From Sedimenticola hydrogenitrophicus (lineage in GTDB: Bacteria; Pseudomonadota; Gammaproteobacteria; Chromatiales; Chromatiaceae), in assembly GCF_025175675.1 (NCBI RefSeq), contig NZ_JANIOA010000040.1:1-42054 (forward strand): 42,054 bases of DNA, read 5' to 3'. A program made the position numbers and the translations under genes. The notes under the pieces were generated by a model. That model saw only the letters and a program-made list of their open reading frames with translations. It was not told where the DNA came from and made no database searches. Each line of letters opens with the position of its first letter. The first letter of the stretch is position 1. Below are positions 8,091-40,356 of this stretch, piece by piece.

Positions 8091-8155
8091 CGGCCCTAAG
8101 TCGTTGCGGATCATTTCCACGCTGACAAAACCCGCTCCTCGGGCACTAACAGGGG

Positions 8156-8161: not shown

Positions 8162-8190
8162 CAGCGCACTTTCCAAAACACGGTGACCCC

Positions 8191-8606: not shown

Positions 8607-8657
8607 CAGCAATGGTGGATGTGCCTACCGAATTGTCCACCCTTAAGACTACAACCT

Positions 8658-8738: not shown

Positions 8739-8855
8739 CCAAAAAACCGGTCATAGGGCGCCCCGTGGGCGCCTAACCCACCCAAAGCTGAATCAGCTGT
8801 ACCCCGCTAATAAAATTGGAAGACTACCAGCCACACCCCGCATTACCGGAACCAC

Positions 8856-20552: not shown

Positions 20553-23500
20553 TCAGACCCGTTCCGGCGGCTTCGTCGGCAGACGGATGACGAAACAGCT
20601 GCCTCCCTCCCTGACCGGCTTCACCTCGATGCTGCCGCGATGGTTCTGGGTAATGATGAAGTAGGAGACCGAGAGCCCGAGTCCGGTGCCGGAGCCGACC
20701 TCCTTGGTGGTGAAAAAAGGTTCAAAGATGCGCCGGCGCACCGCCGGGCTCATACCGGGGCCGTTGTCCTCGATCTCCACGCAGGCCCACTGCCGATCCC
20801 GATAGGCACGCAGGATGAAGCGGTCATTGCCACCGCTCTGGTCGCCGTTGGTGGCGGCCTCAAACATCGCCTGGGCACCGTTTTTCAGCAGATTGAGCAG
20901 CACCTGCTGGATCTGCCCGCCCTCGCACCAGGCCTCCGGCAGATCCGCGGCATATTCGCGTACGATGGAGATCCGTCTGAAATCGTAGTGCTTGGCCAGA
21001 TTGTAGTCATTGGAGGCGATCTCCACGGTCTCATCGAGCAGCAGCCGCAGATCCCGCAGCTCAAACTTCAGGTCGCTCTTGCGGCTGAAACTGAGCATGC
21101 TGCTGACGATCTTGGCCGCGCGCTTGCCGGATTCCGAAACCATCTCCAGCAGTGGCGCGATGCCGCGTTTATCCATATAGCGGTCGATGGCCTCGATCGA
21201 GGTGCCGCAGGCCTCCGCCACCTGGCGATTTTTCGCCATCTCCGGCCCCAGCCGGGTGTTCATCACTTGCACACTCTGCACAATACCGGCCAGCGGATTA
21301 TTGATCTCGTGGGCCATACCCGCCGCCAGGCCGCCCACCGAAAGCATCTTCTCGGACTGCACCATCATCTCTTCCATACGCACCGTCTCGGTCACGTCGT
21401 CCAGGCGGATCACCGCCCCCTCCACCGATTCGGCCAGCAGCGGATAGATGGTGACATCCATGTAATGAACCTCGCCCTTGGCGTCTTCCCAGCGCAGATT
21501 GGTCTCCTGGGCCGGCGCCAGCTCGCCGATGGCCCGCTCTACCTTCTGCAGGACGTCCGGAAACTGCGGGATCAGCTGGGTCAGTGTCTCACCAATGGCG
21601 GCTGCCGCCTTGATCCCGCTCATCCGTTCCGCCTCCCGGTTCCAGTGGGTGATACGGCCCGCCACATCGATACCGATCAGCGCCGACGGCATGGAGTCGA
21701 TGATGTTGCCCAGCAGGTTACGCAGCCTGGTCAGTTCCAGCTCGGCCTGCTTGCGCTGGGTGATGTCGGTATAGGTGGTGACCACGCCGCCCGCCGCCAG
21801 GGGGGTGCGGCACAGCTCCAGCACGGTATCGTTGGGCCGCACCTTTTCAAACACCATCCGCTGCGGCTGGAAGGTGTCCCGGATGTACTGCTGGATAAAG
21901 GCCTCCCGATCCTCGACCAGGCCGTACTCACCCTGATCGATGTTATAGCTGCAGATATCACGCAGGGTGACGCCGCTGCGCAACATCCGTTCCGGCAGCC
22001 CGTTGATCTCCACGAAACGCCGGTTCCATGCCACCAGATTCATCTCCTTGTCGAACATGGAGATGCCCTGATCGACATTTTCAATCACCGACTTCAGTAC
22101 TTCGCGACTCCCCTCCACGGCCGAGGAGGCTTCGTCAATAATGTCCAGTACGCTGTCCAGGTTGATATTGGTACGCCGCAGACTGCTGTTGATCATCACC
22201 CGGGCGGAGGCGGAGCCGACCACCCCGGCGAGCAATTTCTCCACCTGGGTGAGCAGATCCGCCGGTGCATCCATGCCGGGCGAATAGGCCGAGGAGCCGC
22301 TGTCGCGATAGCGCCCAAACAGCTGCTCCACCCGGTGACGGTCGACGAACCGCTCAACGATCCGCTCCAGGTCGGCGATGCGGATCTGCCCCTCCCAGGG
22401 GCGGGTGGCGTACTCACTCTTGGGCGAAAACACATCCACAAACGCCCGCGCCTGGGTTCGCTCGATCAGACTCTGGCGGGAGAACAGGGACACCAGCAGA
22501 TAGAGTCCGATATTGAAAAAGGCGCTCCAGAAGAGACTGTGAATCAGCGGATTTTCCCAGGCCACACCAAACAGCGCCTGGGGTTTCAGCAAACCGATCT
22601 CGAACGGTCCCAGCTCGACGATGGACAGCGGCAGCCAGCCGGACTGGGCGAAGGCCGGCAGCACCAGGGTGTAGCCCCAGACCAGAAAACCGCTCATCAG
22701 GCCGGTCAGGGCCCCGGCCAGAGTCGCCCCCTTCCAGAAGATGCCGCCGATGATCAGCGGCGCAAACTGGGCCGCCGCCGCAAAGGAGACCAGGCCGATG
22801 GTCACCAGCGCATAGGAGTCGCCGATGAGCGTGACATAGCTGTAGGCGAGGAACAGCACACCCAGAATACTCAGCCGGCGCAGCGCCTTGAGCATGCCGG
22901 TGGCCGTGTCGGAGGCCCTGCTGCCGAAATGGAACAGGCGCAGGCGCAGCAGCAGCGGCACGATCAGATCGTTCGAGACCATGGTACTCAGGGCCACGGT
23001 CGCCACGATCACCATACCGCTGGCGGCGGAGAGGCCGCCGATATAAACCAGCAGCGCCAACCCCGGCTGCTCCGCCACCATCGGCAGCGCCAGCACGAAG
23101 GTGTCGGGATTGACCGCCCCGGGCGGAAAGGTGACCAGCCCGGCGATGGCGATCGGTAGTACAAAAAAGTTGATCGCCAGCAGATAGAGCGGAAACAGCC
23201 ACATCGCCTTATCCAGATGCGAGCGGTTGGTGTTCTCCACCACCGTGACCTGAAACTGGCGCGGCAGGCAGAAGATCGCCAGCCCCGCCAGCACCATCAG
23301 CGAGGTCCAGCTGCCGCTTTCGAACAGTGCCTCTCCGGAGATCAGGCGGGCGAGCCCCTCATCCGCTTCCACCCGGTCAAAGATCGACTCGAATCCGTCA
23401 AACATGAAGAAGGTGACAAAGACGCCGACCGCCAAAAAGGCAAACAGCTTGACCAGTGACTCAAAGGCGATCGCCACCATCAATCCTTCATGGTGCTCCG

Positions 23501-24065
23501 AGGCGTCCAGGCGCCGGGTGGCAAAAAGGATGGTGAACAAGGCCAGCACGATAGTGACGTAGAACGCCTTGTCATTGAGTACGCTGGTGGTGTGGGGAAG
23601 ATAGGTGCTGATCGTGGGGTAGCCCCCCAGGATATCGAAACTGGTGGAGATCGCCTTCAGCTGCAAGGCGATGTAGGGCATGATGCCGATCACCGCCACC
23701 ACCGTCACCAGACCGGCCAGCTTCTGGCTCTTGCCGTAACGGGAGGAGATGAAGTCGGCAATCGAGGTGGTGTGCTGCGCCTCGGCAATTTTCAGGATCT
23801 TGCGCAACAGAAACGGCGCCACCAGAAACACCAGGGTGGGCCCCAGATAGATGGGCAGGAAACCGATGCCGTCGGTCGCCACCCGGCCGACACTGCCGTA
23901 GAAGGTCCAGGAGGTGCAGTAGACCGCCAGGGACAGCGAGTAGACATAAGGATTGGCGCCGATGCTGCGCCCCTGCCGGGCACGCCTGTCGGCATAGTGG
24001 GCGATCAGGAACAGCAGCCCCAGGTAGGCCAGCGAGGTAACGAAGACCAGCCAGACAAACGGCAT
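20553..24065 (-). CDS. SSS-transporter/histidine kinase fusion (CbrA-like)
   Basis: This 1170-residue protein fuses a sodium:solute symporter (about 1-500, twelve or more helices) to a sensor kinase. A STAC-like linker (about 530-640) and two PAS domains (about 655-770 and 785-895) follow. The dimerisation box with phosphoacceptor His919 (GMAHEINNPLAG) is next, and the HATPase has the N-box LLNLLKNGAQAMF, the G1 box EDNGPGM and GTGLGLSVSY. The layout resembles Pseudomonas CbrA, which senses carbon/nitrogen state with CbrB, though here there are two PAS domains and no response regulator next door. The ligand cannot be read. I chose ATG 24065; the stop of the upstream small gene overlaps it by one base (TGATG), so it should be translated by reinitiation. 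A TTG at 24068 is the alternative. Confidence 0.92.
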   Translation of the reverse strand: MPFVWLVFVTSLAYLGLLFLIAHYADRRARQGRSIGANPYVYSLSLAVYCTSWTFYGSVGRVATDGIGFLPIYLGPTLVFLVAPFLLRKILKIAEAQHTTSIADFISSRYGKSQKLAGLVTVVAVIGIMPYIALQLKAISTSFDILGGYPTISTYLPHTTSVLNDKAFYVTIVLALFTILFATRRLDASEHHEGLMVAIAFESLVKLFAFLAVGVFVTFFMFDGFESIFDRVEADEGLARLISGEALFESGSWTSLMVLAGLAIFCLPRQFQVTVVENTNRSHLDKAMWLFPLYLLAINFFVLPIAIAGLVTFPPGAVNPDTFVLALPMVAEQPGLALLVYIGGLSAASGMVIVATVALSTMVSNDLIVPLLLRLRLFHFGSRASDTATGMLKALRRLSILGVLFLAYSYVTLIGDSYALVTIGLVSFAAAAQFAPLIIGGIFWKGATLAGALTGLMSGFLVWGYTLVLPAFAQSGWLPLSIVELGPFEIGLLKPQALFGVAWENPLIHSLFWSAFFNIGLYLLVSLFSRQSLIERTQARAFVDVFSPKSEYATRPWEGQIRIADLERIVERFVDRHRVEQLFGRYRDSGSSAYSPGMDAPADLLTQVEKLLAGVVGSASARVMINSSLRRTNINLDSVLDIIDEASSAVEGSREVLKSVIENVDQGISMFDKEMNLVAWNRRFVEINGLPERMLRSGVTLRDICSYNIDQGEYGLVEDREAFIQQYIRDTFQPQRMVFEKVRPNDTVLELCRTPLAAGGVVTTYTDITQRKQAELELTRLRNLLGNIIDSMPSALIGIDVAGRITHWNREAERMSGIKAAAAIGETLTQLIPQFPDVLQKVERAIGELAPAQETNLRWEDAKGEVHYMDVTIYPLLAESVEGAVIRLDDVTETVRMEEMMVQSEKMLSVGGLAAGMAHEINNPLAGIVQSVQVMNTRLGPEMAKNRQVAEACGTSIEAIDRYMDKRGIAPLLEMVSESGKRAAKIVSSMLSFSRKSDLKFELRDLRLLLDETVEIASNDYNLAKHYDFRRISIVREYAADLPEAWCEGGQIQQVLLNLLKNGAQAMFEAATNGDQSGGNDRFILRAYRDRQWACVEIEDNGPGMSPAVRRRIFEPFFTTKEVGSGTGLGLSVSYFIITQNHRGSIEVKPVREGGSCFVIRLPTKPPERV

Positions 24066-24346
24066 CAATACCGCCCTTTGCGCAGGGTGCCGGCCCTGGA
24101 ACGCCAGGCTTCCCTGAGCAGCCGCCAGACTTTCGGATAGACCACCAGGACAATCAGCAACAACCAGATCAGGTTAATATAGAGGATGATCAGCGGCCAG
24201 CCGAAGAGACGGCTACCCGTGGCGCTGGAGAAGATCTCCAACAGCGGCGGATTCAGCATCATCGCCCCGATCAGCGCGGCCACCAGCATCCGCGCCCGAC
24301 CGCCGCCTTTCGCCGTCACCCGCACTCGTTCTCGCTCTGTTGCCAT
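24065..24346 (-). CDS. Small two-helix membrane protein coupled to the kinase
   Basis: This 93-residue protein has a basic N-terminus (MATERERVRVTAKGGGRAR) and two hydrophobic segments, about 20-40 (MLVAALIGAMMLNPPLL) and about 48-70 (WPLIILYINLIWLLLIVLVV). The C-terminal tail is basic. Its stop overlaps the kinase start (TGATG), so the two are translated as a pair. A small ORF (CbrX) similarly precedes cbrA in Pseudomonas, and small subunits accompany some SSS transporters (YjcH with ActP). I infer a partner subunit but see no clear family match. The ribosome site AGGGCAGGT precedes the ATG. Confidence 0.75.
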   Translation of the reverse strand: MATERERVRVTAKGGGRARMLVAALIGAMMLNPPLLEIFSSATGSRLFGWPLIILYINLIWLLLIVLVVYPKVWRLLREAWRSRAGTLRKGRY

Positions 24347-24799: not shown

Positions 24800-24817
24800 A
24801 ATAGACACCCACCCACA

Positions 24818-24849
24818 GGCCCGTGATGCTGCAGCGTCACGGGCCTTTT
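24818..24849 (+). terminator. Rho-independent terminator of the 68-residue gene
   Basis: GGCCCGTGA (24818-24826) and TCACGGGCC (24837-24845) form a perfect 9-bp stem, followed by TTTT. It starts 19 bases after the stop of the small gene. A second hairpin (AGGGCCT at 24854-24860, AGGCCCT at 24873-24879) follows without a T-run. Confidence 0.85.
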
Positions 24850-24910: not shown

Positions 24911-27900
24911 TCAGCGCACCTCACGGACTACCCGGAAACCGAGCACCAGCAGCCGGGTATCCACTTCATGCCGCCCCCGCCGGGTGACCCGCAGACTCAC
25001 GCCCGGCTTGTTGAATGCACCACCCCGCACCACCCGCTCGCGACACCCCGGCTCCTGCCAGCTCGATCCATCGGTCGGCGCGCCCTCGTAGGAGCCGTGG
25101 TAACAGTCCTCCACCCACTCCATGACGTTGCCCGCGGTGTTGTGAAGGCCGAACGGATTGGCCACGAAGCGGCCCACCGGCGCGGTTGAGGCACCGTCCC
25201 ATTCGCTGCCGCAGTTGAAACAGTTGGCGTTACCCGAGCCCAGATCAAAACCCCACCAGTATGGCGTATCGGTACCCGCCGCGGCCGCATACTCCCACTC
25301 CGCCTCGCTCGGCAGCCGGTAGCGCTGGCCGGTCTGCTCGCTCAGCCAGTCGGTATAGGCCCTGGCGTCATTCCAGCTGACATTGATCACCGGGCGCGGC
25401 CCCTGTCCCCAGCCGAGGTCATCCGGCAATCCGCGTCCGGTGGCGGCGGCGAACCGCGCATACTCCCGGAAGGTCACCTCGTAGCGCCCGATACTAAAGC
25501 TGCGCAAACGCACTTCATGTACCGGCTGCTCTTCACTGGCCAGCTGGCTGATGGCGCTGCCCATGCGGAATACCCCACCCGCGACATAGACCATCTCCGG
25601 GCCGCTTCCGCCGGTGGCCAGAGGGTCCTGGATCAAGCTGCCGGTGGCCGTTCCCCGGGGCTCAGGGGGGGGCTTGGGCGTCACCGGCTCACGCGGGGCA
25701 ACCACCGGCGCCCGCGGTATTTCCGGCACCGCGGGCGTCGGCGTCCGAGGCGGTTTGGCGAGCGGCGCGGCGACCGGTGGCGCCACCGGGGCAACGGGCT
25801 CACTCTCCGGGCTCGGGGAGACAACCGGCGCCGCCCCCAGGAAGCCGCTGATGATCTCGCCATTGCCCCCCAGGAGGGAGAGCGCCTCCGCCACCCCGAA
25901 GGCCAGTACCGCCCCGATCAGCACACCGACCAGTTTTTGTCGGCTGGAACTGTGGCCGACCACCAGCGGGCCCATCGACGCGGCCAGCCGCTTGTCCAGC
26001 AGATCATCCCGGGGACGCCCGTGTTCGATCTGCTTCTGCAGCGCATACAGCGAATCCTCGACCTGCTTGCGCGCCTCCAGCGCCTCATCTTTTTTGAAAG
26101 TCGCCTCGTCGGCCTCGACCTGGGCCGCTTCCAGTGCCAGTTTGAGACGATCGATCTCGCTGTTGCGCTCTTCGGTCTTCTCTTCCAGCAGCAGGCTCTC
26201 TTTGCGCGTCCTTTCCAGCTCGGCGCTGCGCTCATCCAGCGAACGCTTCAGCTTGTCGATATCCTGGCGCAGTACTTCACACTCCGCGGCATCGACCGAG
26301 CTGTTGAGCTCCAGCTCCTTGAGTGCGCCATGCGCCTCCTCCAGCGCCTGCTGCAGTTCGGCTACCCCTTTGGCCGGTGTTCCGGTGGCCGGCGCTTCCA
26401 CCGCGGCCTCCTCCGCCTGGCACCGCTGGTACGCCTCGGCCTCGACCTGCTCACGCAACGCGTCCAGGGCCTCGCCGAGACGCGCCACTTCCTGCTCGGC
26501 AGCCGCCTTCTGTTCCCGCAGCCGCGCATTGTCCTCCGCCCCCGGCGCCGCCGCGCGCAACTGCTCCAGCTCCTCCTGTAGCTGCGCCTTCTCCCGGACG
26601 AGCGTGTCGTAGGCCTTGTCCGCCTCGTCCAGCGCGTCGTTCAGGGTCTCCAGTTCGGCCTGCACCGCCTTGATTTCATTCTGTGCCGCCGGGCTACTGG
26701 CGGCCACCCGGCCGGCCGCTGCCAGGGCATCTTCGGCCGCGACCCGCGCCGCGGTTGCCTCCGCCAGTTCCGCACGCAGGAAATCCACCTCTTCGGTGGA
26801 GGGCCGTTCCTCCGCCTGTGCCGCCTCGGCCAGTCGGGCTTCGAGCTCGGCGCGGCGCTGGCGATCGTTCTCCAGCTGCCGGGTGAGGTCGCCGCGTTCG
26901 GTGTCCAGACCGGAGAGCTCGGCGGTCAGCTGTTCACGCTCCCGGTGTAACTCCTGCAGCGCCTGCTCGGCCGCTTCCAGCCGGGCCGTTGTCTCCTGCA
27001 CCTCGGCCTGATCCGTGTCCCGTAGTTGCTGCAACTCCGTCAGGGACTGCGTCTTCTCCTGTGTCGCCTGGCGGGCCGACTCAAGCTCCGCGTTGGCCGC
27101 AGCGAGCGCCTGTGTCAGCCGCTCCAGTTCATCCTGTTGCCGGCCGCGCGCCTGTTCGTCCTCGGTCCCGGCGCGCTGCTCCCGCTCCATCTGCAAGCGC
27201 AGTTCGACCAGGCCGCTCTCCCGCTCATCGGCGAGTTGCTGCAGCTGAACAAAGCTCTTCTGCAGCACCGCCAGCTCCGCCGCCACCCGGTCCCGCTCAT
27301 CTGATGCGGCCTGTAATGCGAACTGTGCCTGATTCCGTCCCTCGACCGCCTCATCGAGTGATTGCCGTAGCGCCGCCTCCTGATCACTCTGTCGCTCTGT
27401 CTGCGCCTGTTTCAGGACCTGCCGTTCGGCATCCAGATCACCGATGCGGGCATCGGCGGCCTCCAGTTCGGCGCGCAGCCGGTCCAGTTCGGCATTGAGC
27501 AGCCGCTGCTGTTGATCGGCGCTCGCCAATGCCGCGTCGCGCGCGGTGTCATCGGCACCCCGCTCCGCCAGGGCCGCCTCCAGTGATTCGATCCGGCTGT
27601 TGGCCGCCGCCAGGATTTCGGCCATGGCCTGCACCTGTTCGGCCGCCTCGCTCTGCTGCCGTTCATGGGCGGCGCGTAACGCGGCCGCCTCCTCCTGCAG
27701 CGCCTGCAGGTCGCGCTGTGTCGCCTGCTGTTGTTCCTGGGCCGCTTCCGCCGCCTGCCGGGATTGGCTCAGCTCATCCCCCCGTTGCGCCAGCACGGCC
27801 TGCACCCCCTCCAGGGCCTCCTGCAACCTTCCGGCCTCCTCGTCCAGCGTGGTTTTCTCCGCCTGGAGCTCGCCCAGTTCCGTGCGGCTGTCACTCAGCG

Positions 27901-29692
27901 CCCGCTGCAGTGTTTCCTGGGCCTCGACCAGGGACTCCCTGAGCCCTGCCTCTTCCTGCTGTTTCGCCAACGCCGCTGCGGCCGCCTGCCTTGTGTGCGT
28001 CAGCTCACCCCCCAGCTGCTCCAGCTCGGCGCGCGCCCCCTCCAGGGCTTCCTGCAACCTTCCGGCCTCCTGTGCCAGCATGGTTTTTTCCGCCTGGAGC
28101 TCGCCCAGTTCCGTGCGGCTGCCGCTCAGCGCCCGCTGCAACGCCTCCTGGGCCTCGGTCTGGGACTGCTGCAGTCGCGCCTCCCCCTGCTGCTGCGCCT
28201 CCAGGCGTTTCTCCAGCTTGCCTATCTGTTGATAGACCTCGCCCAGCTTGTCCTGCAGCTGATCACGCTCGCCGGCCACATCCGCCAGCTGCGCCTCAAT
28301 GTATGTCTGCTGCTTTTTCAGGGTTTCGCGGGTTTTCTCGCCGGCATCCAGCTGTTTCTGCAGCTGCTCCACTTCGCCGGCCAGCCGTCGGCTCGCTTCG
28401 CCCTCCCGGGTTTCCGCCGCTTCCGCCTCCACCAGACGCCCTTTGAGCTTTTCCAGCATCAGCTTCATTTTCAGTGCCCGCTGCATCTGTTCCTGGGCCT
28501 GGGCCTCGGTTTTCTGCAGCCGCTCGCGCAGCAGCCCGGCCTCGTCATCCGGTGCCGAGCCGATATCCGGCACGCCTTCCTCGGGACCCGCCTGTTCCGG
28601 GTGCAGGTTGATGACTTGCGCGCGCTCCCGGGACTTGTCCCGGTGCAACGCCTCATCGGGTACCGATTCGAGTCCCCGCTGCAGCACATAGGCATCCAGC
28701 CCCTGTTCCATCAGCAGATAGACCGCCGTGGAGCTCACCAATCCGTCCTGACAGTAGATGACATAGGGTTTCTGTTTATCGAGTTCCGGCAGTGCCGAGC
28801 GCAGGGCATTGAAGGGTACGCTCCGGCTGTTCGGAATCTGCACGCGTTGATGCTCCTGGGGCGATCGAACATCCAGCCAGACGGCGCCCTTCTCCACCTT
28901 GTCCAGCGCCACCTCATAGCTGATGGCGTTGGCCAGCGGCAACTTGATGTATTCAACGAAATCCTTTTTCCCCAGCCGAAACAGGACGCCGTCGGTGAGC
29001 ATGGAGACGGTGCTGCCGCGCGGCTTGCCGGAGAGCAGCGACTCCTCGCCCAGGCAGTGGCCGGCACCGACCTGCGCGAGCTCCTCGATCTCCCCATCCC
29101 CCCGTTCCCGGGTGATGGAGCACTGGCCGCGGTTGATCAGGTAGAAGTAGTCCCCGTCGTCGCCCTGGCGGATCACCAGCTCGCCGGCCGCAACCTGCAC
29201 CTCCTCCATGCGCATCATGATATTCTGGATATTGGCCGCCGGTATGCGCTGAAAAATCGGTGACTGCAGCAGCTGGCCCATCCAGTCATCGTCGGCGTCG
29301 GCGCTCAGCTCTTCAACCCGATACAGGGCGTTACCACCACGGGTCAGCAGCTCACTGAGCTGGTGACTGTCAATGCGGACAATTTCGGCCTTGGTTCTGG
29401 CCTGAACGGAAAATTTGCGCGGCAGGTGGTGGGCCACGGGATAGCGCGCCATGTTGCTGTCGGCGGCAACGGCATCCACCTCCTTGCCATCCTCCAGCAG
29501 GGCGACCCTGCCCGAGAGCAGATAGATGCGCTCGGGATTGGTATCGCCTTCATGGAACAGGTAATCGCCCTTGGCAATCTTCTCAAACTCGACCGCCTCC
29601 ATCAGCTCGGCCAGGGTCTCTTCCGTGAGCGTATTCAGCGGTACCAGCTTCCGCAAAATATTCAAACCGTTCTGTTTTGGCACTACCGCCAT
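24911..29692 (-). CDS. Giant CNB-CNB-rhodanese-coiled-coil-TM-SUMF1/FGE protein
   Basis: This 1593-residue protein has an unusual domain chain. Two cyclic-nucleotide-binding (Crp-like) domains lie at about 15-115 and 143-253. A rhodanese domain (about 256-343) keeps its active loop, VIYCQDGLVSS, with Cys314. A charged coiled coil covers about 385-1245; it contains a 77-residue in-frame tandem duplication. One membrane helix (KLVGVLIGAVLAFGVAEALSLLGG, about 1253-1276) follows, then a Pro-rich linker (about 1283-1350) and a formylglycine-enzyme/SUMF1-like domain (about 1366-1593) with GNVMEWVEDC and RVVRGGAF. The FGE catalytic Cys pair is missing after RGG, so it is probably a binding rather than an oxidase domain. 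Topology: N-terminal sensors in the cytoplasm, FGE-like domain outside the inner membrane. I chose ATG 29692 because GGGGA lies six bases upstream; TTG 29698 would add two residues. Function unknown. Confidence 0.9.
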   Translation of the reverse strand: MAVVPKQNGLNILRKLVPLNTLTEETLAELMEAVEFEKIAKGDYLFHEGDTNPERIYLLSGRVALLEDGKEVDAVAADSNMARYPVAHHLPRKFSVQARTKAEIVRIDSHQLSELLTRGGNALYRVEELSADADDDWMGQLLQSPIFQRIPAANIQNIMMRMEEVQVAAGELVIRQGDDGDYFYLINRGQCSITRERGDGEIEELAQVGAGHCLGEESLLSGKPRGSTVSMLTDGVLFRLGKKDFVEYIKLPLANAISYEVALDKVEKGAVWLDVRSPQEHQRVQIPNSRSVPFNALRSALPELDKQKPYVIYCQDGLVSSTAVYLLMEQGLDAYVLQRGLESVPDEALHRDKSRERAQVINLHPEQAGPEEGVPDIGSAPDDEAGLLRERLQKTEAQAQEQMQRALKMKLMLEKLKGRLVEAEAAETREGEASRRLAGEVEQLQKQLDAGEKTRETLKKQQTYIEAQLADVAGERDQLQDKLGEVYQQIGKLEKRLEAQQQGEARLQQSQTEAQEALQRALSGSRTELGELQAEKTMLAQEAGRLQEALEGARAELEQLGGELTHTRQAAAAALAKQQEEAGLRESLVEAQETLQRALSDSRTELGELQAEKTTLDEEAGRLQEALEGVQAVLAQRGDELSQSRQAAEAAQEQQQATQRDLQALQEEAAALRAAHERQQSEAAEQVQAMAEILAAANSRIESLEAALAERGADDTARDAALASADQQQRLLNAELDRLRAELEAADARIGDLDAERQVLKQAQTERQSDQEAALRQSLDEAVEGRNQAQFALQAASDERDRVAAELAVLQKSFVQLQQLADERESGLVELRLQMEREQRAGTEDEQARGRQQDELERLTQALAAANAELESARQATQEKTQSLTELQQLRDTDQAEVQETTARLEAAEQALQELHREREQLTAELSGLDTERGDLTRQLENDRQRRAELEARLAEAAQAEERPSTEEVDFLRAELAEATAARVAAEDALAAAGRVAASSPAAQNEIKAVQAELETLNDALDEADKAYDTLVREKAQLQEELEQLRAAAPGAEDNARLREQKAAAEQEVARLGEALDALREQVEAEAYQRCQAEEAAVEAPATGTPAKGVAELQQALEEAHGALKELELNSSVDAAECEVLRQDIDKLKRSLDERSAELERTRKESLLLEEKTEERNSEIDRLKLALEAAQVEADEATFKKDEALEARKQVEDSLYALQKQIEHGRPRDDLLDKRLAASMGPLVVGHSSSRQKLVGVLIGAVLAFGVAEALSLLGGNGEIISGFLGAAPVVSPSPESEPVAPVAPPVAAPLAKPPRTPTPAVPEIPRAPVVAPREPVTPKPPPEPRGTATGSLIQDPLATGGSGPEMVYVAGGVFRMGSAISQLASEEQPVHEVRLRSFSIGRYEVTFREYARFAAATGRGLPDDLGWGQGPRPVINVSWNDARAYTDWLSEQTGQRYRLPSEAEWEYAAAAGTDTPYWWGFDLGSGNANCFNCGSEWDGASTAPVGRFVANPFGLHNTAGNVMEWVEDCYHGSYEGAPTDGSSWQEPGCRERVVRGGAFNKPGVSLRVTRRGRHEVDTRLLVLGFRVVREVR
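27805..28157 (-). repeat. 231-base in-frame tandem duplication in the coiled coil
   Basis: Positions 27805-27926 and 28036-28157 are near-identical at DNA level, offset by exactly 231 bases, with related sequence between them. Landmarks such as CGCCCAGTTC (27871 and 28102) and CCTGGGCCTCG (27916 and 28147) fix the offset. 231 bases is 77 codons, or 11 heptads, so the register of the coiled coil is kept. Confidence 0.85.
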
Positions 29693-30039: not shown

Positions 30040-31599
30040 ATGAAAAAATCAGCAGGAATCGTGGCGGCCGGTCATCCGGTCACCGCCAGCGCCGCAACGG
30101 AGATTCTGCGCGCCGGCGGCAACGCCTTTGATGCCGCGCTGGCGGCACTGTTCGCTGCCTGCGTCGCCGAGCCGGTGCTGGCCTCCCTCGGGGGTGGCGG
30201 CTTCCTGACGGCCCAGTCCGCCGACTCGCAACCGTTGCTGTATGACTTTTTCGCCCAGACACCCCATGCCCGGCCGGTTGAATCAGAACTCGATTTTTAT
30301 CCCATCCTGGCCGACTTCGGCACCGCCCAGCAGGAGTTCCATATCGGCATGGGATCGATCGCCACCCCGGGGGCGATCAAGGGGGCCTTCGCCATCCACC
30401 GCGACCTCGGCAGTATGCCGTTGCGGGAGATCATTCAGCCGGCCTGTGAAGCCGCCCGCGACGGCGTGCGGGTAAACAGCTTTCAGCACTACATCGCCGA
30501 GATCGTATCCCCCATCATCCAGTCAAGTCCGGAGGCGCTGCAGTTGCATGCCAGCGCGCGGCAACCGGGCGTGATCGCCGGGCGGGATGAGACGGTGTGC
30601 AATCCCACCACGGCGGATGGCTTCGAGATCCTGGCACTGGAAGGGGAGGCGCTGTTTTACCGCGGCGAGATGGGGCGCCAGCTGACCAGCGACTGCCATG
30701 GCCATGGCGGCTGTCTTACCCCGACCGACCTGGAGTCTTATCAGGTGGTACGGCGATTACCACTGACCCTCGACTATCGCGGCACCCGGCTGTTCACCAA
30801 TCCGCCGCCCTCCATCGGCGGTATCCTGATCGCCTTCACCCTGGCGCTGCTGGAGCAGGAGCGGCTGGGGCAGTACCGGGTCAACAGCGCCGCCCACCTC
30901 GGTCGCATCAGCCACGCCATGAAGCTGACCCAGCAACTGCGCAGCGACCAGGGGATCGGCGCGGGTGGCACGGCAGCATCCGGGCTCGACATCCTCTCCA
31001 GCGAACTGCTCGGCCGCTACCGGGAGGTGATGCGCAATCACAAGGGTTTCTCCCGCGGCACCACCCAGATCAGTATCGCCGACGGGGCAGGCAATCTGGC
31101 CAGCATGACCCTGTCCAACGGCGAGGGGTCGGGCTATGTGCTGCCCGGATGCGCCATCATGCTGAACAACATGCTCGGCGAAGAGGATATCAATCCGCAC
31201 GGGTTCAATCGCTGGCCGTACAATCGGCGCATCGCTTCCATGATGTCCCCTTCCCTGGTGAACACCGCCGCCGGCGATACCATCGCGCTCGGCTCGGGCG
31301 GCTCCAACAGGATACGCAGCGCCATTCTCCAGGTGCTGATCAATCTGATCGACTTCGGCATGGAGATCGAACCGGCGGTCGAACAACCACGCGTGCATTT
31401 CGAGTCCGACCTGCTGAATATCGAAAACGGACCTTCCGCCGCCACCCTCCGGGCACTGGGAAAGGAGTTTGCCGACATCCGCTGCTGGCCGGAAAAAAAC
31501 CTGTTCTTTGGCGGCGCCCACTCGGTGATGCGCAAAAACAATGGCCAACTCTCCGGCTGCGGCGACAGTCGCCGGGGCGGCGTCTGCTATCGCTTGTGA
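30040..31599 (+). CDS. Gamma-glutamyltransferase family protein, no signal peptide
   Basis: This 519-residue Ntn-hydrolase-type protein belongs to the GGT family. The N-terminal part shows GHPVTASAATEILRAGGNAFDAALAA. The predicted autocleavage/nucleophile Thr341 is in RGTTQISIADGAGNLASMT, and the GSGGSNRIRSAI loop (usually GSPGGSRI) is near the end. GGTs transfer or hydrolyse gamma-glutamyl bonds, for example in glutathione, and are usually exported. Here no signal peptide is visible, which suggests a cytoplasmic member of the family or a distinct substrate. The conserved proline of the oxyanion loop is absent, so activity is uncertain. It lies alone between the coiled-coil gene and the HU-like gene. 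Confidence 0.85.
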   Translation: MKKSAGIVAAGHPVTASAATEILRAGGNAFDAALAALFAACVAEPVLASLGGGGFLTAQSADSQPLLYDFFAQTPHARPVESELDFYPILADFGTAQQEFHIGMGSIATPGAIKGAFAIHRDLGSMPLREIIQPACEAARDGVRVNSFQHYIAEIVSPIIQSSPEALQLHASARQPGVIAGRDETVCNPTTADGFEILALEGEALFYRGEMGRQLTSDCHGHGGCLTPTDLESYQVVRRLPLTLDYRGTRLFTNPPPSIGGILIAFTLALLEQERLGQYRVNSAAHLGRISHAMKLTQQLRSDQGIGAGGTAASGLDILSSELLGRYREVMRNHKGFSRGTTQISIADGAGNLASMTLSNGEGSGYVLPGCAIMLNNMLGEEDINPHGFNRWPYNRRIASMMSPSLVNTAAGDTIALGSGGSNRIRSAILQVLINLIDFGMEIEPAVEQPRVHFESDLLNIENGPSAATLRALGKEFADIRCWPEKNLFFGGAHSVMRKNNGQLSGCGDSRRGGVCYRL

Positions 31600-31683: not shown

Positions 31684-31729
31684 AAATGTGAAAAAGGCCG
31701 GTTTTTACTGCATTTCCGCTTGGAAGTAC

Positions 31730-31757
31730 TTGGAAAAACACAAATCTATGCTATGTT
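31730..31757 (+). promoter_or_regulatory. Promoter of the HU-like gene
   Basis: TTGGAA (31730-31735) and TATGTT (31752-31757) are separated by 16 bases, a plausible sigma-70 promoter. A second TTGGAA at 31720-31725, ten bases earlier, makes a helically phased direct repeat. The predicted start is near 31764, about 30 bases before the ATG. Confidence 0.5.
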
Positions 31758-31794
31758 TAGCGCGCACTCATCAGGTCTAACCCAGGAGTTTTCC

Positions 31795-32274
31795 ATGGCC
31801 GTCAAGAAAAAAGCTGCAAAAAAAACCGCCGCTAAAAAAGCACCCGTAGCAAAGAAGAAGGTCGTCGCCAAGAAAGCCGTAGCTAAAAAGGCGCCCGTCA
31901 AGAAAGCCGCCGCGAAAAAGGCCCCCGTCAAGAAAGCCGCTGCTCCAGCAAAACCCAAGGCCATCACCGCCAAACAGACCAAGACCCAGATCCTTCAGGC
32001 CATCGCCGAAGAGACCGGTCTCAGCCGCAAGCAGGTCGGTGACGTGTTCAACTCACTGGGGGGCCTGGTCAAGGGACACATGATCCGTCGCGGATCCGGT
32101 GAATTCGCCATCCCTGAAACCGGCGTCAAGGTCCGCCGGGTGGTCAAACCGGCACGCAAGGCGCGCATGGGCCGCAACCCGGCCACCGGCGAACCGATCA
32201 AGATCGCCGCCAAGCGGGCAACCACCGTGGTCAAGGTCACCGCGCTGAAGGCGTTGAAAGACACTGTCGCCTGA
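31795..32274 (+). CDS. HU-like DNA-binding protein with lysine/alanine-rich N-terminal tail
   Basis: This 159-residue protein joins an N-terminal histone-H1-like tail (about 1-55, repeats of AKKAPVKKAA) to an HU/IHF-type domain. The HU part shows TKTQILQAIAEETGLSRKQVGDVFNSLGGLVKGHMIRRGSGEFAIPETGVKVRRVVKPARKARMGRNPATGEPIKI in outline, with the DNA-contacting arm (RMGRNPATGEPIKI). Such tailed HU proteins compact DNA or bind RNA. I chose ATG 31795 because CCAGGAG lies seven bases upstream; the longer frame covers the promoter. A strong terminator follows. Confidence 0.92.
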   Translation: MAVKKKAAKKTAAKKAPVAKKKVVAKKAVAKKAPVKKAAAKKAPVKKAAAPAKPKAITAKQTKTQILQAIAEETGLSRKQVGDVFNSLGGLVKGHMIRRGSGEFAIPETGVKVRRVVKPARKARMGRNPATGEPIKIAAKRATTVVKVTALKALKDTVA

Positions 32275-32463: not shown

Positions 32464-32985
32464 TCATAACTTTCTCAGCATCAGCTGATCGCCCCGCTGT
32501 GTCCACTCCAGCTGCTTCAGAAAACTCATGCCCAGCAGCACCTCGCTGCCCGTCATGGTCGGCAATACGCTGGCGCTCACATCGGTCAGCGTAATCTCCC
32601 CCAGCCCGACTTCGGACAACCGCGTCTGCCACGAGGCGACCGTGCCGTTGGCGGTCTGACTCAGCGACTGCCGTCCCCTGGGCAGCTCCAGGCGCTGCGC
32701 CAGTTCATCGGAGATGGCCACATCGGTGGCGCCGGTATCCAGCAGGAACAGCACCGGATGACCATTGATACGGCCGCTCGCCACATAGTGGCCCGCGCGG
32801 TTGCGTTTCAGTACCACCTGTGCCCCACGATTATCCCGCAGCGTGAGCGGTGCCTGGTTGGGATTGTGCTGCTTCTCCAGGATCCCGTTGAACAGAAACG
32901 CCATCAGCCCCAGCAGCAGCACCCAGGAGAGGATCATCATCCACCTGCCGATACCCCCGACACCGCCGCCCTGCCCGTTGTTCAT
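32464..32985 (-). CDS. Membrane-anchored retropepsin-like aspartic protease (TIGR02281 type)
   Basis: This 173-residue protein has one N-terminal membrane helix (WMMILSWVLLLGLMAFLF) and a single retropepsin-fold domain. The aspartic protease motif DTGAT is at 83-87, and VLLGMSFL near the end is the conserved hydrophobic-Gly element. Such single-domain proteases act as dimers, here probably in the periplasm. The TIGR02281 group is widespread in proteobacteria, with no settled substrate. It lies 102 bases after the PilZ-like gene on the same strand. The N-terminal Gly-rich head before the helix is short. Confidence 0.88.
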   Translation of the reverse strand: MNNGQGGGVGGIGRWMMILSWVLLLGLMAFLFNGILEKQHNPNQAPLTLRDNRGAQVVLKRNRAGHYVASGRINGHPVLFLLDTGATDVAISDELAQRLELPRGRQSLSQTANGTVASWQTRLSEVGLGEITLTDVSASVLPTMTGSEVLLGMSFLKQLEWTQRGDQLMLRKL

Positions 32986-33087: not shown

Positions 33088-34854
33088 TCAGATACTGTTC
33101 CAGAGCTGTTCGAAATCCGCCACCTCGATCCCCTGGTCATCCACCGCCTGCGGTTCCGGCAGGGCTTGGTCATGATAATAAAACTGGATGAAGGCGCCCG
33201 TGGCCTCGATCTCCCGACTGAGCACGATTTCCCGTTTCTGGCCCTGCGTCACCAGCCAGGTGCGCTCCCCCGCTTCGGAGAAGAATGGCAGGGTAATGAT
33301 CGTTTGATCCTCCTGCGGGCGCTGCAGCAACAGGCCGGAGCTGTAGCTCTCCTGCCCGCCCCCCCACTGGCGGTAAAAAATCACCGTCTCCACATCACCA
33401 CCTATCAGCTCCACGCCGAAGTCGATCACCTGCGGACGCTCGGTGCGCATCCAGCGCACCACACCCAGACGCAACGACTCCTCGCCTTCTCTGTCCCAAT
33501 GAGTTACCGCCACCAGTTCCCCGACACTGATAGACTCCGCCGCGTTGGCACTCCAGCCCAGTTGGAAGCCGCTGCTGCCTTCGTTGTATACCGGGCAGTT
33601 GTGGGAGAGCGGGAGGGTCGATGCCGACGGAACCTCTCCGACCTTGGCGGTGGACCCGGCGCCGGCAATCACATGCTCATCCGCACTCAGGTCGGAACGG
33701 GGTATGCCGCGGGCGGCCTTACTGGTTTCTTTCCGTGGACCGGCTGAATTGAAGGCACCGGGGTTGGCGCCGGCGTCGGCTATCCGCTCGCCACCCAACT
33801 CGCGGTAAATTGCCTCCAGGCCCCGGACCAGAACCACCTCTCCCTCCGTCTGGTCTCGCTCGGTCACCCGACTGGATCCGATCCCCCAGATCAGCATCAG
33901 CCGCGCCAACAGATCGGGTGAGATCTTGTCCGGGGCATCCTGGGGCCGCATGGCGCCATGCAGGGCGTCCACCGCCTCCAACTCGGAGGCCAGGCCGACC
34001 GCCAGATCGCTGGTGTCCAGCACCCAGCCACGCTGCACCTGATGATCGCGCTCGCCCCCCATACGTCGAGGCGGCTCATCGCTGCCGATATCCACGATAA
34101 AGGGGCCGTCGTCGCTACTCGAACGGCCCAGATCCAGCAGCCGCGCCTCCGGCACCCAGCGCGGCAGCGCCAGATAGACCCGCACAGCTTCCCCCTGCAG
34201 CAGCCGATAGGGGCCCGCCAGGGAGAGCAGTAATATCTGCTTGTAAAGATCATTTACCGTGGCTTGCGTGGGCAGGCGCCTATCCAGATTTCCCACCTGC
34301 CGGTCCGCCAGTTTCTGGTCGCAGGCGTAGTGGTGGATACCATGAATCTCCCGCCAGATGTGGGCGGGTGCCGGCCGATAGAGCTGGTACTCCTGCAGCA
34401 GCCGCCGGCCGAGGAAATAGAGTACCCGGTGCAGGGCCAAGGCACGATTGGCCTTGTGCAGCAACTGCCCGGTTAAATGCTCCAGGTGATACTGATCGAG
34501 CACCACCTTGTAACCCTGGGTGGCCAGGATGCACAGGCTGCCGTGCATGTCGGCCATTAGCGTCGCCCGCCGGCTGAGTGGCAGCGGTATCCGGGCATAA
34601 CCCTTCTCCAGCGCCTCCAGCACCACCATTAACGAGTTCGCCAGCGCCTCCAGATTGCTCACCCGGCTGGCCACCGGCATTATCGAGGCGTTCATCCGCT
34701 GCAATAGCTGATGTAAATCCTGCGCGACCTGGCCGATATTGCCGATCGGCAACTGCTCCATCAGCTGCTTGAAGCGCCTGGGTTCGAAAGTATCGTCACC
34801 CTTGGGCAATGGTGTACGTCCGGGCAGGAGATAGGGATTGGTGCTCTCGGCCAC
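33088..34854 (-). CDS. PilZ-like protein of unknown function (588 residues)
   Basis: This is a 588-residue predominantly helical protein. It begins AESTNPYLLPGRTPLPKGDDTFEPRRFKQ in outline, followed by MEQLPIGNIGQVAQDLHQLLQRMN. The C-terminal part (about 425-500) resembles a PilZ beta barrel (VGELVAVTHWD...LRLGVVRWMRTE...DFGVELIGGD), but the RxxxR and D/NxSxxG c-di-GMP residues are not clearly seen. No signal or membrane segment is present. I chose GTG 34854 because AAGGAGA lies six bases upstream; the longer frame upstream is not supported. Related sequences are often mislabelled molecular chaperone. It may take part in motility or c-di-GMP signalling, but this is inference. The gene cut at 42054 has a similar N-terminal style. 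Confidence 0.75.
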   Translation of the reverse strand: MAESTNPYLLPGRTPLPKGDDTFEPRRFKQLMEQLPIGNIGQVAQDLHQLLQRMNASIMPVASRVSNLEALANSLMVVLEALEKGYARIPLPLSRRATLMADMHGSLCILATQGYKVVLDQYHLEHLTGQLLHKANRALALHRVLYFLGRRLLQEYQLYRPAPAHIWREIHGIHHYACDQKLADRQVGNLDRRLPTQATVNDLYKQILLLSLAGPYRLLQGEAVRVYLALPRWVPEARLLDLGRSSSDDGPFIVDIGSDEPPRRMGGERDHQVQRGWVLDTSDLAVGLASELEAVDALHGAMRPQDAPDKISPDLLARLMLIWGIGSSRVTERDQTEGEVVLVRGLEAIYRELGGERIADAGANPGAFNSAGPRKETSKAARGIPRSDLSADEHVIAGAGSTAKVGEVPSASTLPLSHNCPVYNEGSSGFQLGWSANAAESISVGELVAVTHWDREGEESLRLGVVRWMRTERPQVIDFGVELIGGDVETVIFYRQWGGGQESYSSGLLLQRPQEDQTIITLPFFSEAGERTWLVTQGQKREIVLSREIEATGAFIQFYYHDQALPEPQAVDDQGIEVADFEQLWNSI

Positions 34855-35266
34855 GGCAGTTCTCCTTATTATTTTCCTGGGTTGGCATAGTGTTCTGCTG
34901 GCGGGGATCGCGACACCCCCGGTTTCGCCCGACGACGACCGCCGCGGTTCGCTACGCCCCCCGGTCGCCATCAATGGCCCGTCGCCGCCGGATTCATCAG
35001 ATTCCCATATCCAGAGTATAGTCCGCCCACACCCATCAACATTATTCATATCCGGGCCGCACCTGATACAACGTACCTATGCACGCATCGGAAATTTCGA
35101 TTGCCGCAACACCGGTTTAATCTGGCGGGATCGAACCGAGAAGAGTATCTTACCAAATTCTAAATTATGGGTTTTTACGTACCCTGAATGGTGACCGCAA
35201 TTCCCATCGGGATCCCTTGTCAGCCCAGATAATCGATTGAACCCTTTCCGCGACGGAGGAACATCC
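34855..35266. other. Divergent intergenic region before qmoA (about 412 bases)
   Basis: This separates the leftward PilZ-like gene from the rightward qmoA. It should hold both promoters. GATAAT (35228-35233) is a possible -10 box for qmoA without a good -35 partner, and TTGTCA (35217-35222) is too close to pair with it. A/T-richer DNA lies at 35140-35180. I see no RNA gene or clear repeat. Confidence 0.5.
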
Positions 35267-36553
35267 ATGACGGAAGTAATTGCAACCAACCAGACCATCC
35301 TGGTGGTCGGTGGCGGTATCAGCGGCCTCACCGCCGCCCTGGAAGCCGCCGAAACAGGAAAGCAGGTCGTCCTGGTTGAAAAACGTCCCTATGTTGGTGG
35401 TCGTGTCACCCAGCTGTACAAATATTTCCCCAAGCTCTGCTTCCCCACCTGTGGACTGGAAATCAATCAGCGCCGGGCGAAGATGAACCCCAACCTGACC
35501 ATCCTGACCATGGCCGAGGTGACCGACATCCAGGGCGACGCGGGCAACTACACCGCCAGCGTGAAGATCAGTCCCCGCTACGTGAATGATAACTGCACCG
35601 GTTGCGGCGACTGCGCCCGGGCGGTCAGCGCCGAGTTTGACGATGAGTTCAACTACGGCCTGGGCAAGCGCAAGGGAGCCTACCTGCCGCACCGCATGGC
35701 TCATCCGCAACGCTACGTGATCGACCCGGCGATCCTCGGCACCGACGAGGCGGAAAAGGCCAAGACAGCCTGCAAGGTGAACGCGGTCGATCTGGAGATG
35801 CAGGAAGAGACGGTCTCCTTCAAGGCCGGCGCCGTGGTCTGGGCCACCGGCTGGCAGCCGTACGACGCCAACAAGATCCAGCCCTACGGTTATGACCGCT
35901 TCCAGAATGTCGTCACCAATGTGGAATTCGAGCGCATGGCCGATCCCAACGGACCGACCGGCGGCAAGATTTTGCGCCCCTCCGATGGCGAGGTGGCGAA
36001 GAACATCGCCTTCATCCAGTGCGCCGGTTCGCGTGACAAGAACCACCTGCTGCACTGCTCGCGCATCTGCTGCATGGCCACCCTGAAGCAGACCCATTAT
36101 GTGCAGGAGGCGCTGGGCGACGAGGGTAAGTCCACCATCTACTACATCGATATCCGCGCTATCGACCGGTTCGAGGATTTTTACCAGGCGGTGCGGGAGA
36201 ATCCCAACGTCTCCTTCATCAAGTCCAAGGTCGCCTCGATCACCCAGAACAAGGAAAACAGCAACCCGGTGCTGAACGGGGTGGATACCGAGGGTTATCA
36301 CCGCTATGCCAACGAGCATGACCTGGTGGTGCTGGCGGTGGGCATGCAGCCCAGCGTCGACAAGGCCAGCTTCCCGGTGGATATCGTGATCAATGAAGAG
36401 GGCTTCATCGAGCCCGCAACAGAAAACGGCGGTATCTTTGCAGCCGGCTGCTCTTCCGATGCGCTGGATGTGAATCGCGCGGTCCAGCAGGCCACAGGCG
36501 CCGCACTGCGCGCCATTCAGGTAGTAAACCGCGTCGCCGGAACGGAGGGTTAA
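35267..36553 (+). CDS. qmoA: QmoA, HdrA-like flavoprotein of Qmo complex
   Basis: This 428-residue flavoprotein starts with an FAD dinucleotide-binding motif (ILVVGGGISGLTAALEAAE). Like HdrA/QmoA, it carries GRVTQLYKYFPKLCFPTCGLEINQRR in outline. A reduced Fe-S insertion follows (NCTGCGDC, then TACKVNAVD), which may hold one cluster. QmoA is part of the quinone-interacting oxidoreductase that moves electrons between APS reductase and the quinone pool. In sulfur oxidisers it is used in sulfite oxidation. The ATG at 35267 has GGAGGA seven bases upstream. It is the first of four tightly spaced genes. No apr or dsr genes lie within this window. Confidence 0.92.
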   Translation: MTEVIATNQTILVVGGGISGLTAALEAAETGKQVVLVEKRPYVGGRVTQLYKYFPKLCFPTCGLEINQRRAKMNPNLTILTMAEVTDIQGDAGNYTASVKISPRYVNDNCTGCGDCARAVSAEFDDEFNYGLGKRKGAYLPHRMAHPQRYVIDPAILGTDEAEKAKTACKVNAVDLEMQEETVSFKAGAVVWATGWQPYDANKIQPYGYDRFQNVVTNVEFERMADPNGPTGGKILRPSDGEVAKNIAFIQCAGSRDKNHLLHCSRICCMATLKQTHYVQEALGDEGKSTIYYIDIRAIDRFEDFYQAVRENPNVSFIKSKVASITQNKENSNPVLNGVDTEGYHRYANEHDLVVLAVGMQPSVDKASFPVDIVINEEGFIEPATENGGIFAAGCSSDALDVNRAVQQATGAALRAIQVVNRVAGTEG

Positions 36554-36557
36554 CAAC

Positions 36558-38804: not shown

Positions 38805-38816
38805 GGGATACGGATT

Positions 38817-39440
38817 ATGAGCGATTTAAATAGCGCAATGACCGAAAGGTACCACAACAGCTTCCTCAAGGAGGTTGAGGCCAACGTCGAAGAGGGCGAA
38901 TGGGTCAAGATGTGCATGCAGTGCGGCGTCTGCGCCGGTTCCTGCCCGCTGGGCAACGCCTGGGAGCACACCCCGCAGAAACTGTTCATGATGATCCGCG
39001 CCGGCAAGCGCGAGGCGGTGCTCTCGTCCGACGCCATGTGGATGTGTACCTCCTGCTACAACTGTATCGCACGCTGCCCACGCGGCCTGCCCATCACCCA
39101 CATCATGCACGGCCTGGCGCACTACGCCAAACGCCTCGGCCTGGTGCCGAAGAACCAGCCAACCGCACAGTTCTCGCAGATCTTCTGGGACAACCTGATG
39201 AAGAAGGGCCGGGTCAACGAGCTGAAGCTGGGCCTCGCCATCTACTTCAAGGACGGCTTCGGCCAGGGCATCAAGAACGCCCTCGCCAACAAGCAGCTGG
39301 GCCAGAACATGATGAAGGCCAAGCGCATGAATGCCATGGAGTTCTTTGGCGGCCACAGCATCAAGGACACCGGCGGTCTGCAGAAGATGATCAAGAAGGC
39401 CCAGGAGATCGAAGATGCCAAAATCCAGGGCAACAGCTAA
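38817..39440 (+). CDS. hdrC: HdrC-like iron-sulfur subunit
   Basis: This 207-residue soluble protein has two [4Fe-4S] motifs, CMQCGVCAGSCPLG (about 33-46) and CTSCYNCIARCPRG (about 76-89), the HdrC pattern. In Desulfovibrio the corresponding partner is QmoC, an HdrC domain fused to a membrane cytochrome b part. Here the membrane part is absent and HdrC is free, followed by HdrB. Such a qmoAB-hdrCB layout is known from several sulfur oxidisers and Gram-positive sulfate reducers. It starts 12 bases after qmoB and ends 16 bases before hdrB. Confidence 0.9.
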   Translation: MSDLNSAMTERYHNSFLKEVEANVEEGEWVKMCMQCGVCAGSCPLGNAWEHTPQKLFMMIRAGKREAVLSSDAMWMCTSCYNCIARCPRGLPITHIMHGLAHYAKRLGLVPKNQPTAQFSQIFWDNLMKKGRVNELKLGLAIYFKDGFGQGIKNALANKQLGQNMMKAKRMNAMEFFGGHSIKDTGGLQKMIKKAQEIEDAKIQGNS

Positions 39441-39456
39441 GTGAGGACCGACCAAG

Positions 39457-40356
39457 ATGGCTAAGAAAGAAGTCTCATACTACCCGGGATGCTCCTCACA
39501 GACAGGGGCCTCATCATCCAACATGATGCGCGCCACCCAGACCATGTGCGACGAGCTGGACATCCAGCTCAACGAGATCCCGGACTGGAACTGCTGCGGC
39601 GCCTCGATCGGCTACGGCGGTGGCGGCGAGCTGCCGCGCCTGACCCTGTCGGCGCGCAATATCGCGCTCTCCGAGCAGCACAACCCGGGCCAGGAGATCG
39701 TCGCCACCTGCGCCGCCTGCTGGCTCTCCACCCGCGAGGCGAAAGAGCGCCTGCATGAAGACGCCAACATGTTCCGCGACGCCAACACCGCGCTGAACGA
39801 GATCAACCTGAAACTGAACAACCAGACCCCGGTGCGCCACATGGTGGAAGTGCTGGTGGAGGACATCGGTTTCGAGGCGATCAAGGCGAAGGTGAAGAAA
39901 CCGCTGCAGGGGCTGAAGATCGCCAGCTATGTCGGCTGCCAGACCAACCGCCCGTTCGGCATCGCCGAGGAGTCGTTCGAGAACCCGGTCTACCTGGACC
40001 ACCTGATCGAGAGCGTGGGCGCCGACTCCATCCCCACCTACGAGAAGAAGGTGCAGTGCTGCGGCGGCGCCCTGGCCTTCTCCGAGCCGGAGAAGTCCCA
40101 GGAGATGATCCACGGCATCATCGAGGCGGCCTACGACCACGGTGCCGACCTGATCGCCACCCCGTGCCCGCTGTGCCAGGCCAACGTGGAGATCTACCAG
40201 GACCAGATCAACGCCCGCTTCGGCAGCAAGTTCAACATGCCGGTGGTCTACTACAGCCAGCTGATGAGCGTCGCCTTCGGCCGCAACAGCAAGGACTCGG
40301 CTCTGGACGGCCAGATCATCCGCGCCAAGTCGCTGGAAGAGATCGCCGGTAAATAG
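39457..40356 (+). CDS. hdrB: HdrB-like CCG-domain subunit
   Basis: This 299-residue protein has two CCG domains: the first with YPGCSS, WNCCGAS and TCAACW, the second with YVGCQTNRP, VQCCGGA and TPCPLCQANV. In HdrB these Cys-rich motifs bind the two noncubane [4Fe-4S] clusters that reduce heterodisulfide; the partner substrate in the Qmo complex is unknown. It is the last gene of the qmoAB-hdrCB operon. A strong terminator lies 36 bases after the stop. Confidence 0.9.
   Translation: MAKKEVSYYPGCSSQTGASSSNMMRATQTMCDELDIQLNEIPDWNCCGASIGYGGGGELPRLTLSARNIALSEQHNPGQEIVATCAACWLSTREAKERLHEDANMFRDANTALNEINLKLNNQTPVRHMVEVLVEDIGFEAIKAKVKKPLQGLKIASYVGCQTNRPFGIAEESFENPVYLDHLIESVGADSIPTYEKKVQCCGGALAFSEPEKSQEMIHGIIEAAYDHGADLIATPCPLCQANVEIYQDQINARFGSKFNMPVVYYSQLMSVAFGRNSKDSALDGQIIRAKSLEEIAGK

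Follow-up and report, generated by a model that had tools for sequence, protein, structure and literature searches.

What kind of protein joins, in a single chain, two cyclic-nucleotide-binding (CNB) domains, a rhodanese domain, a very long coiled coil, a membrane helix and a domain resembling the formylglycine-generating enzyme (FGE), and is it one protein at all? This question was raised by a 42,054-nucleotide stretch of the genome of Sedimenticola hydrogenitrophicus (hereafter, the window), in which the initial annotation had placed such a fusion, correctly, at positions 24911-29692 without giving its strand. The reading frame, on the minus strand, runs from an ATG at 29692 to a stop at 24911 (1593 codons, 0 internal stops), a possible TTG start being located two codons upstream of the ATG. 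The parts of the protein and two neighboring genes are the following.

24911..29692, minus strand: whole gene, 1593 codons plus stop; a single frame in 9/9 genomes of the genus.
29288..29659, minus strand: CNB1, approximately residues 12-135, with a degenerate cassette that keeps PR (91-92) and has lost the Glu (second Pfam stretch, limits from the alignment).
28946..29200, minus strand: CNB2, residues 165-249, with the cassette GEESLLSGKPRGSTV including E216 and R225 (Pfam and alignment).
28664..28909, minus strand: rhodanese domain, residues 262-343, with the loop CQDGLVS that contains Cys314 (Pfam and loop alignment).
25988..28552, minus strand: coiled-coil rod, approximately residues 381-1235 (heptad power 6.84 versus a shuffle maximum of 2.04).
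25877..25933, minus strand: predicted membrane helix, approximately residues 1254-1272, LVGVLIGAVLAFGVAEALS and then GGNGEI (hydropathy).
25628..25837, minus strand: Pro-rich linker, approximately residues 1286-1355 (dN/dS 1.12).
24923..25603, minus strand: FGE-like domain, residues 1364-1590, lacking the catalytic Cys pair (Pfam and alignments).
30040..31599, plus strand: gamma-glutamyltranspeptidase (GGT), a divergent neighbor that is not part of the protein (Pfam context).
31720..32274, plus strand: HU-like DNA-binding protein with a Lys/Ala-rich tail, the most constant neighbor of the rod loci (locus comparison).

The single 1593-residue protein proposed by the initial annotation might be an assembly artefact, or its frame might really correspond to several genes. 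Separate adjacent frames do occur in 4 of the 80 loci analyzed (the best 80 of 578 confirmed), and genome G023 shows three frames. Against such a reading, genome comparison revealed that the N-terminal module (N-module) and the FGE domain share one stop-free frame of 1539-1697 amino acids in all nine genomes of the genus (that of the window and G001-G008, one of the nine being assembled in two contigs), and in at least three further genomes (G010, G017 and G047, the last from another family); among the loci retrieved, at least 12 of the 55 match-bearing genomes contain the intact chain. Moreover, purifying selection runs along the frame. When dN/dS was computed by segment against S. hydrogenitrophicus SN1189 (L071), the nearest relative among the best 80 of 578 loci, the values in the head were 0.18 for CNB1, 0.15 for CNB2 and 0.10 for the rhodanese domain; they were 0.31-0.46 in the rod, 0.09 in the helix and 0.05 in the FGE domain, while the two linkers gave 0.93 and 1.12. 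These data indicate that the chain is under purifying selection, with both ends and the helix strongly constrained and the linkers evolving near-neutrally. The artefact or several-genes reading is, therefore, already largely refuted, and its probability is close to nil.

All three domain families named in the initial annotation exceeded their Pfam cut-offs in the HMM searches, i.e. cNMP_binding (PF00027; 96.2 bits in two stretches), Rhodanese (PF00581; 45.3 bits) and FGE-sulfatase (PF03781; 185.5 bits versus a cut-off of 23.3). The best solved relatives of the CNB pair are of the PKG/PKA-R type. The tandem arrangement is shared with the PKA regulatory subunit and PKG, and the cassette Glu and Arg are retained in CNB2, but CNB1 lacks the Glu, a rhodanese domain comes after the pair, and no kinase or substrate-like part was found in the protein by Pfam. 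In an alignment of 70 of the 81 N-module rows available (11 loci, mostly near-duplicates, were excluded), E216 and R225 of CNB2 are conserved in 70/70 sequences, and CNB1 shows an invariant Pro-Arg and no cassette Glu. The nucleotide-sensing end suggested previously is thus backed by CNB2, but not by CNB1. Two class III cyclase matches over the cut-off were detected in the same genome.

Cys314, formerly assigned as the catalytic residue of the rhodanese domain, is present. Nevertheless, the loop does not fit the full active pattern, which we take to be C-x-x-G-x-R-[ST], since it reads CQDGLVS in the window and in six other Sedimenticola, versus CDTGRRS; the loop Arg, absent in the window, is found in 7 of the 17 fused proteins. 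The persulfide-sensing role suggested in the initial annotation is, with this loop, hypothetical. According to the alignment rows, the Cys is conserved in 17/17 fused proteins, 4/4 split forms, 18/20 short frames and 6/10 cut frames, versus 4/19 uncut rods without the FGE domain. Hence, the protein shares with GlpE and other single-domain rhodaneses (PF00581) the domain and the active-loop Cys, but the loop Arg is missing in Sedimenticola and the Cys in most FGE-less rods. Standalone CNB-CNB-rhodanese proteins of about 350 amino acids, one of which (39% identical) is encoded in the genome of the window (L003/L056), are homologous to the whole head, but they have no rod, helix or FGE domain, carry mostly the CDTGRRS loop, and have other gene neighbors.

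Hydropathy analysis predicted one membrane helix. The lack of a signal peptide-like start, the Lys/Arg residues preceding the helix, and four Cys of the FGE-like domain that are invariant in 21/21 aligned sequences, none of them corresponding to the catalytic pair, suggest an N-in/C-out topology with the head inside and the FGE-like domain outside, in agreement with the external location originally assigned to this domain. An active formylglycine-generating enzyme was considered and rejected, because the alignment to the S. coelicolor-type FGE shows a gap and no Cys at the positions of the catalytic pair, which we assume to lie near the C terminus. The best solved relative of the domain is PvdO (5hha, 143.9 bits); the NCBIfam PvdO model gave 160.1 bits, far below its cut-off of 500, so that a PvdO equivalog is not recognized, and all additional NCBIfam matches of the protein were far under their cut-offs. 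PvdO and FGE are free enzymes. Residues 1364-1590 appear by sequence to have the fold of the PvdO/SUMF1-FGE superfamily and lack the FGE Cys pair, as PvdO does, but in this protein they form the outer end of a coiled-coil chain anchored in the membrane. The outer domain might then be an enzyme of another kind, like its relative PvdO, with the rest of the protein as a regulated anchor, and the fact that the strongest constraint in the protein falls on this domain would fit such a role. However, no substrate or biosynthetic cluster is found beside the gene, the score does not reach the PvdO family cut-off, and rods persist without the domain, all of which makes this alternative very unlikely.

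The same genome encodes two more FGE-like proteins (L057:8121-9587, 488 amino acids; L058:3024-4103, 359 amino acids). A shared helix motif was discarded as a mark of the family because the pattern fits only 21 of 44 rows (duplicate genomes included) and none of the seven rows of the second fused clade (L096, L098, L107, L108, L118, L138 and L144). A role of the variable C terminus as the target of a diversity-generating retroelement was also rejected, as the genome contains no template repeat of it and only short weak matches besides itself. Two RVT_1 reverse-transcriptase matches lie close together on another contig (G000:C81:1432-3359; L156 and L157).

Between the conserved ends, the hydrophobic power at a period of 3.5 over residues 381-1235 was 6.84, far above the maximum of 2.04 in 300 shuffles, which confirms the long coiled coil. 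The initial annotation had interpreted it as a transmembrane signalling rod, and as a fixed lever this is doubtful. The length from the N-module to the helix ranges from 296 to 1031 residues (28 rows, 22 distinct genomes), and among 530 rod indels, counted over all pairs of ten sequences that are not independent as pairs, multiples of 7 account for 73, as expected by chance. The commonest indel length is 4 (92/530), length 7 being among the commoner ones (56/530), and the largest recurrent indel with respect to the window has 77 residues, i.e. eleven heptads. Neither the heptad phase nor the length of the rod is kept, unlike in the BvgS-family linkers, where the heptad phase of the coiled coil sets the output (PMC5829827), and for this reason a tether is preferred to a lever. 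Moreover, rods of the same locus type exist that lack the FGE domain and, in some cases, also the helix. An anti-phage defence protein was considered as well and dismissed, since PADLOC yielded only JetC and LmuB models of 15-22 bits, all of them within the coiled coil.

How widespread is the chain? An architecture search across genomes recovered it in Sedimenticola and in other gammaproteobacterial families. Among the best 80 of 578 loci, the N-module and the FGE domain are in one frame in 16, including Ectothiorhodospiraceae, Thiogranum and Thiohalobacter records, and in four (L091, L109, L112 and L127) an N-module-coiled-coil gene is followed by an FGE gene on the same strand. The rods of L095, L097, L103 and L104 end shortly after the helix, and those of Thiodiazotropha and tubeworm symbionts, up to 1905 amino acids long, have neither a predicted helix nor an FGE domain and finish with a basic tail. 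In L062, two genes that combine N-module and coiled coil are arranged in tandem (4995-7340 and 7408-9702, minus strand). N-module matches were present in 132 of 274 class genomes (among the matches listed), short forms of about 350 amino acids being common. In the phylum set, 15 of 249 genomes had such matches, and the frames of the five that lie outside the class measure 355-381 amino acids. In a tree obtained by a short search, the label "fused" requires 10 changes. An FGE partner acting in trans on all tail-anchored rods was rejected as a general solution because 5 of the 12 genomes with FGE-less rods searched (L095, L103, L104, L072 and L081; completeness unstated) gave no FGE-like match elsewhere at 1e-20, such matches being present in the remaining seven; L086 and L093 were counted as FGE-less rods, and their genomes carry FGE-like genes elsewhere. 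The recurrence of the same chain in many sulfur-oxidising bacteria indicates a genuine protein family, the function of which is inferred. In agreement with the initial annotation, which knew of no described system with this chain, no description of it was found in the open-licence literature searched, so that known domains are here assembled in a chain without a description in that literature.

The gene neighborhood distinguishes the rods from the short forms. The HU-like gene accompanies 14/14 eligible FGE-fused loci, 24/30 other rods and 2/18 short N-module loci, and of the latter two, L094 resembles a broken rod and L102 is cut by a contig end. The corresponding figures are 4/14, 17/30 and 1/18 for GGT, and 3/11 (all Sedimenticola), 5/25 and 0/14 for qmoA. 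Behind the rod, a PfkB-family kinase is encoded in 5/13 FGE-fused, 15/25 other rod and 0/20 short loci, and a Rieske protein in 4/13, 14/25 and 0/20, respectively. Because the HU-like gene and other neighbors recur with the rods and rarely with the short forms, the rods share a single conserved type of locus, which sets them apart from the short paralogues. A PfkB kinase and a small Rieske protein are encoded after the rods of L095, L104, L076 and L108, among others, with an overlap of the rod stop codon in L095 and L104; neither follows the rod in the four eligible Sedimenticola loci.

Some other elements of the window deserve mention. A run of flavoprotein and Fe-S genes (35237-40356, plus strand, with Fer4 domains in 38817-39440) presumably encodes proteins resembling QmoA, QmoB and HdrC/HdrB-like subunits. 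Downstream of the rod gene, a membrane histidine kinase with an SSF-like part, PAS, HisKA and HATPase domains is encoded (20553-24068, minus strand), and matches to it come after the rod in other Sedimenticola loci. A retropepsin-like aspartyl protease (32464-32985, minus strand) lies beside the HU-like gene, and a 653-amino acid protein with no Pfam match (33088-35049, minus strand) is kept in the loci of the genus. Behind the stop codon of the gene, a 15-nucleotide inverted repeat (24817-24846) is terminator-like on the plus strand, in a surrounding where such sites do not exceed their shuffled number.

The link to sulfur metabolism mentioned in the initial annotation is in agreement with the distribution of the long frames. 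Among the matches listed, N-module frames of at least 1000 amino acids occur in 36 class genomes, of which 25 have dsrA, 29 soxB and 31 either gene, versus 62, 83 and 92, respectively, of the other 238 class genomes (matches over cut-off), the difference between 31/36 and 92/238 being strong by a Fisher test that ignores relatedness. The protein might be a membrane-fixed sulfur carrier, with a persulfide at Cys314 serving cytoplasmic sulfur oxidation under the control of cAMP. The conservation of the Cys in 21/21 FGE-bearing rods, the dN/dS of 0.10 of the rhodanese domain, the excess of dsrA or soxB, and the presence of GGT and Qmo/Hdr-like genes close to the Sedimenticola loci would be expected of such a carrier. 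However, the loop Arg is lost in Sedimenticola (CQDGLVS), the Cys is lost in 15 of 19 FGE-less rods, some of them from sulfur-oxidising symbionts, qmoA is near only 3 of the 11 eligible FGE-fused loci, all three from Sedimenticola, and five genomes with long frames (G055, G176, G202, G206 and G245) have neither dsrA nor soxB over the cut-off. We regard the carrier role as improbable.

Another possibility, in line with the initial annotation, is a transmembrane receptor, in which the outer FGE-like domain would sense an envelope ligand and signal through the coiled coil to the head with its CNB and rhodanese domains, or signals would pass in the opposite direction. The location of folded domains on either side of a single helix within one chain, the very strong constraint on the FGE domain and the helix, and the presence of the rhodanese Cys in 21/21 FGE-bearing rods versus 4/19 uncut FGE-less rods, as if the two ends were interdependent, argue for a receptor. 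TagR has an FGE-like fold. In the TagQ-TagR-PpkA system, a periplasmic protein acts on a membrane-spanning cytoplasmic regulator, and TagR and PpkA thus provide a precedent for activating a cytoplasmic kinase from the periplasm (PMC6657622), but here there is no kinase and the binding domain is fused to the rod. The ORFs of the window showed no T6SS context. The lack of an output domain (kinase or cyclase), the unconserved length and phase of the rod, at odds with the phase-dependent output of the BvgS-family linkers, and the almost neutral evolution of the linker between helix and FGE domain (73-131 residues; 28 rows, 22 distinct genomes) speak against a receptor. Moreover, co-loss of the rhodanese Cys and the FGE domain, striking by count, is not significant (p 1 in a sign test): it comprises two independent pairs on well-supported branches and four when all branches are considered, and we regard it as a lead only. 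A receptor is, therefore, rather unlikely. A bolder version is a two-ended sulfur-and-cAMP envelope receptor whose rhodanese Cys and outer FGE-like fold would cooperate across the membrane; loss of the FGE domain would then entail loss of the Cys, and cAMP would decide whether the two ends are coupled. We consider this distinctly unlikely; if it were true, sulfur-oxidising Gammaproteobacteria would possess a transmembrane regulator of a new class.

The explanation that we prefer, with a probability of roughly 0.4, is that the protein acts as a dimeric tether or scaffold that responds to cAMP, spans the inner membrane once and carries, as an optional part, an extracytoplasmic FGE-like domain for binding. 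In the cytoplasm, two chains would pair into a long parallel coiled coil. Its N-terminal end would bear a head made up of a degenerate CNB1, a single nucleotide pocket with the conserved residues, in CNB2, and a domain with the rhodanese fold. The cAMP made by the class III cyclases of the cell would shift this head from one state of binding its cytoplasmic partners to another, and the rod may hold it up to about 0.1 micrometre from a membrane site, which in FGE-bearing lineages would be fixed or chosen by the outer FGE-like fold through binding of an envelope partner. The heptad coiled coil, E216/R225 of CNB2 in 70/70 N-modules, the PKG/PKA-R type of the best solved CNB relatives, the two cyclase matches, the variable rod between conserved ends, the contrast between strongly constrained ends and helix and near-neutral linkers, and the HU-like neighbor in 14/14 FGE-fused loci favor the tether, and the split into adjacent genes in four loci fits parts that act by assembly. 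On the other hand, no part of the protein is more constrained in Sedimenticola than the FGE domain (0.05), beyond what an optional add-on would suggest, and the domain surely matters there, though other rods do without it; indels of length 7 are common (56/530) and the recurrent 77-residue indel equals eleven heptads, and a register-keeping rod would show the same. The rods of Thiodiazotropha and tubeworm symbionts, having no predicted helix, are not membrane tethers in the same way.

Taken together, these results reveal a protein conserved in many Gammaproteobacteria, 1000-1900 residues long, that carries a cyclic-nucleotide pocket and is encoded at a recurrent locus. Its share is higher among bearers of dsrA or soxB, and its hosts include a Sedimenticola as well as symbionts of lucinids and tubeworms. 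Should the head bind cAMP, the protein would bring a second messenger and a membrane-fixed scaffold to bacteria where little is known of either, and since Sedimenticola is culturable, direct experiments are possible.
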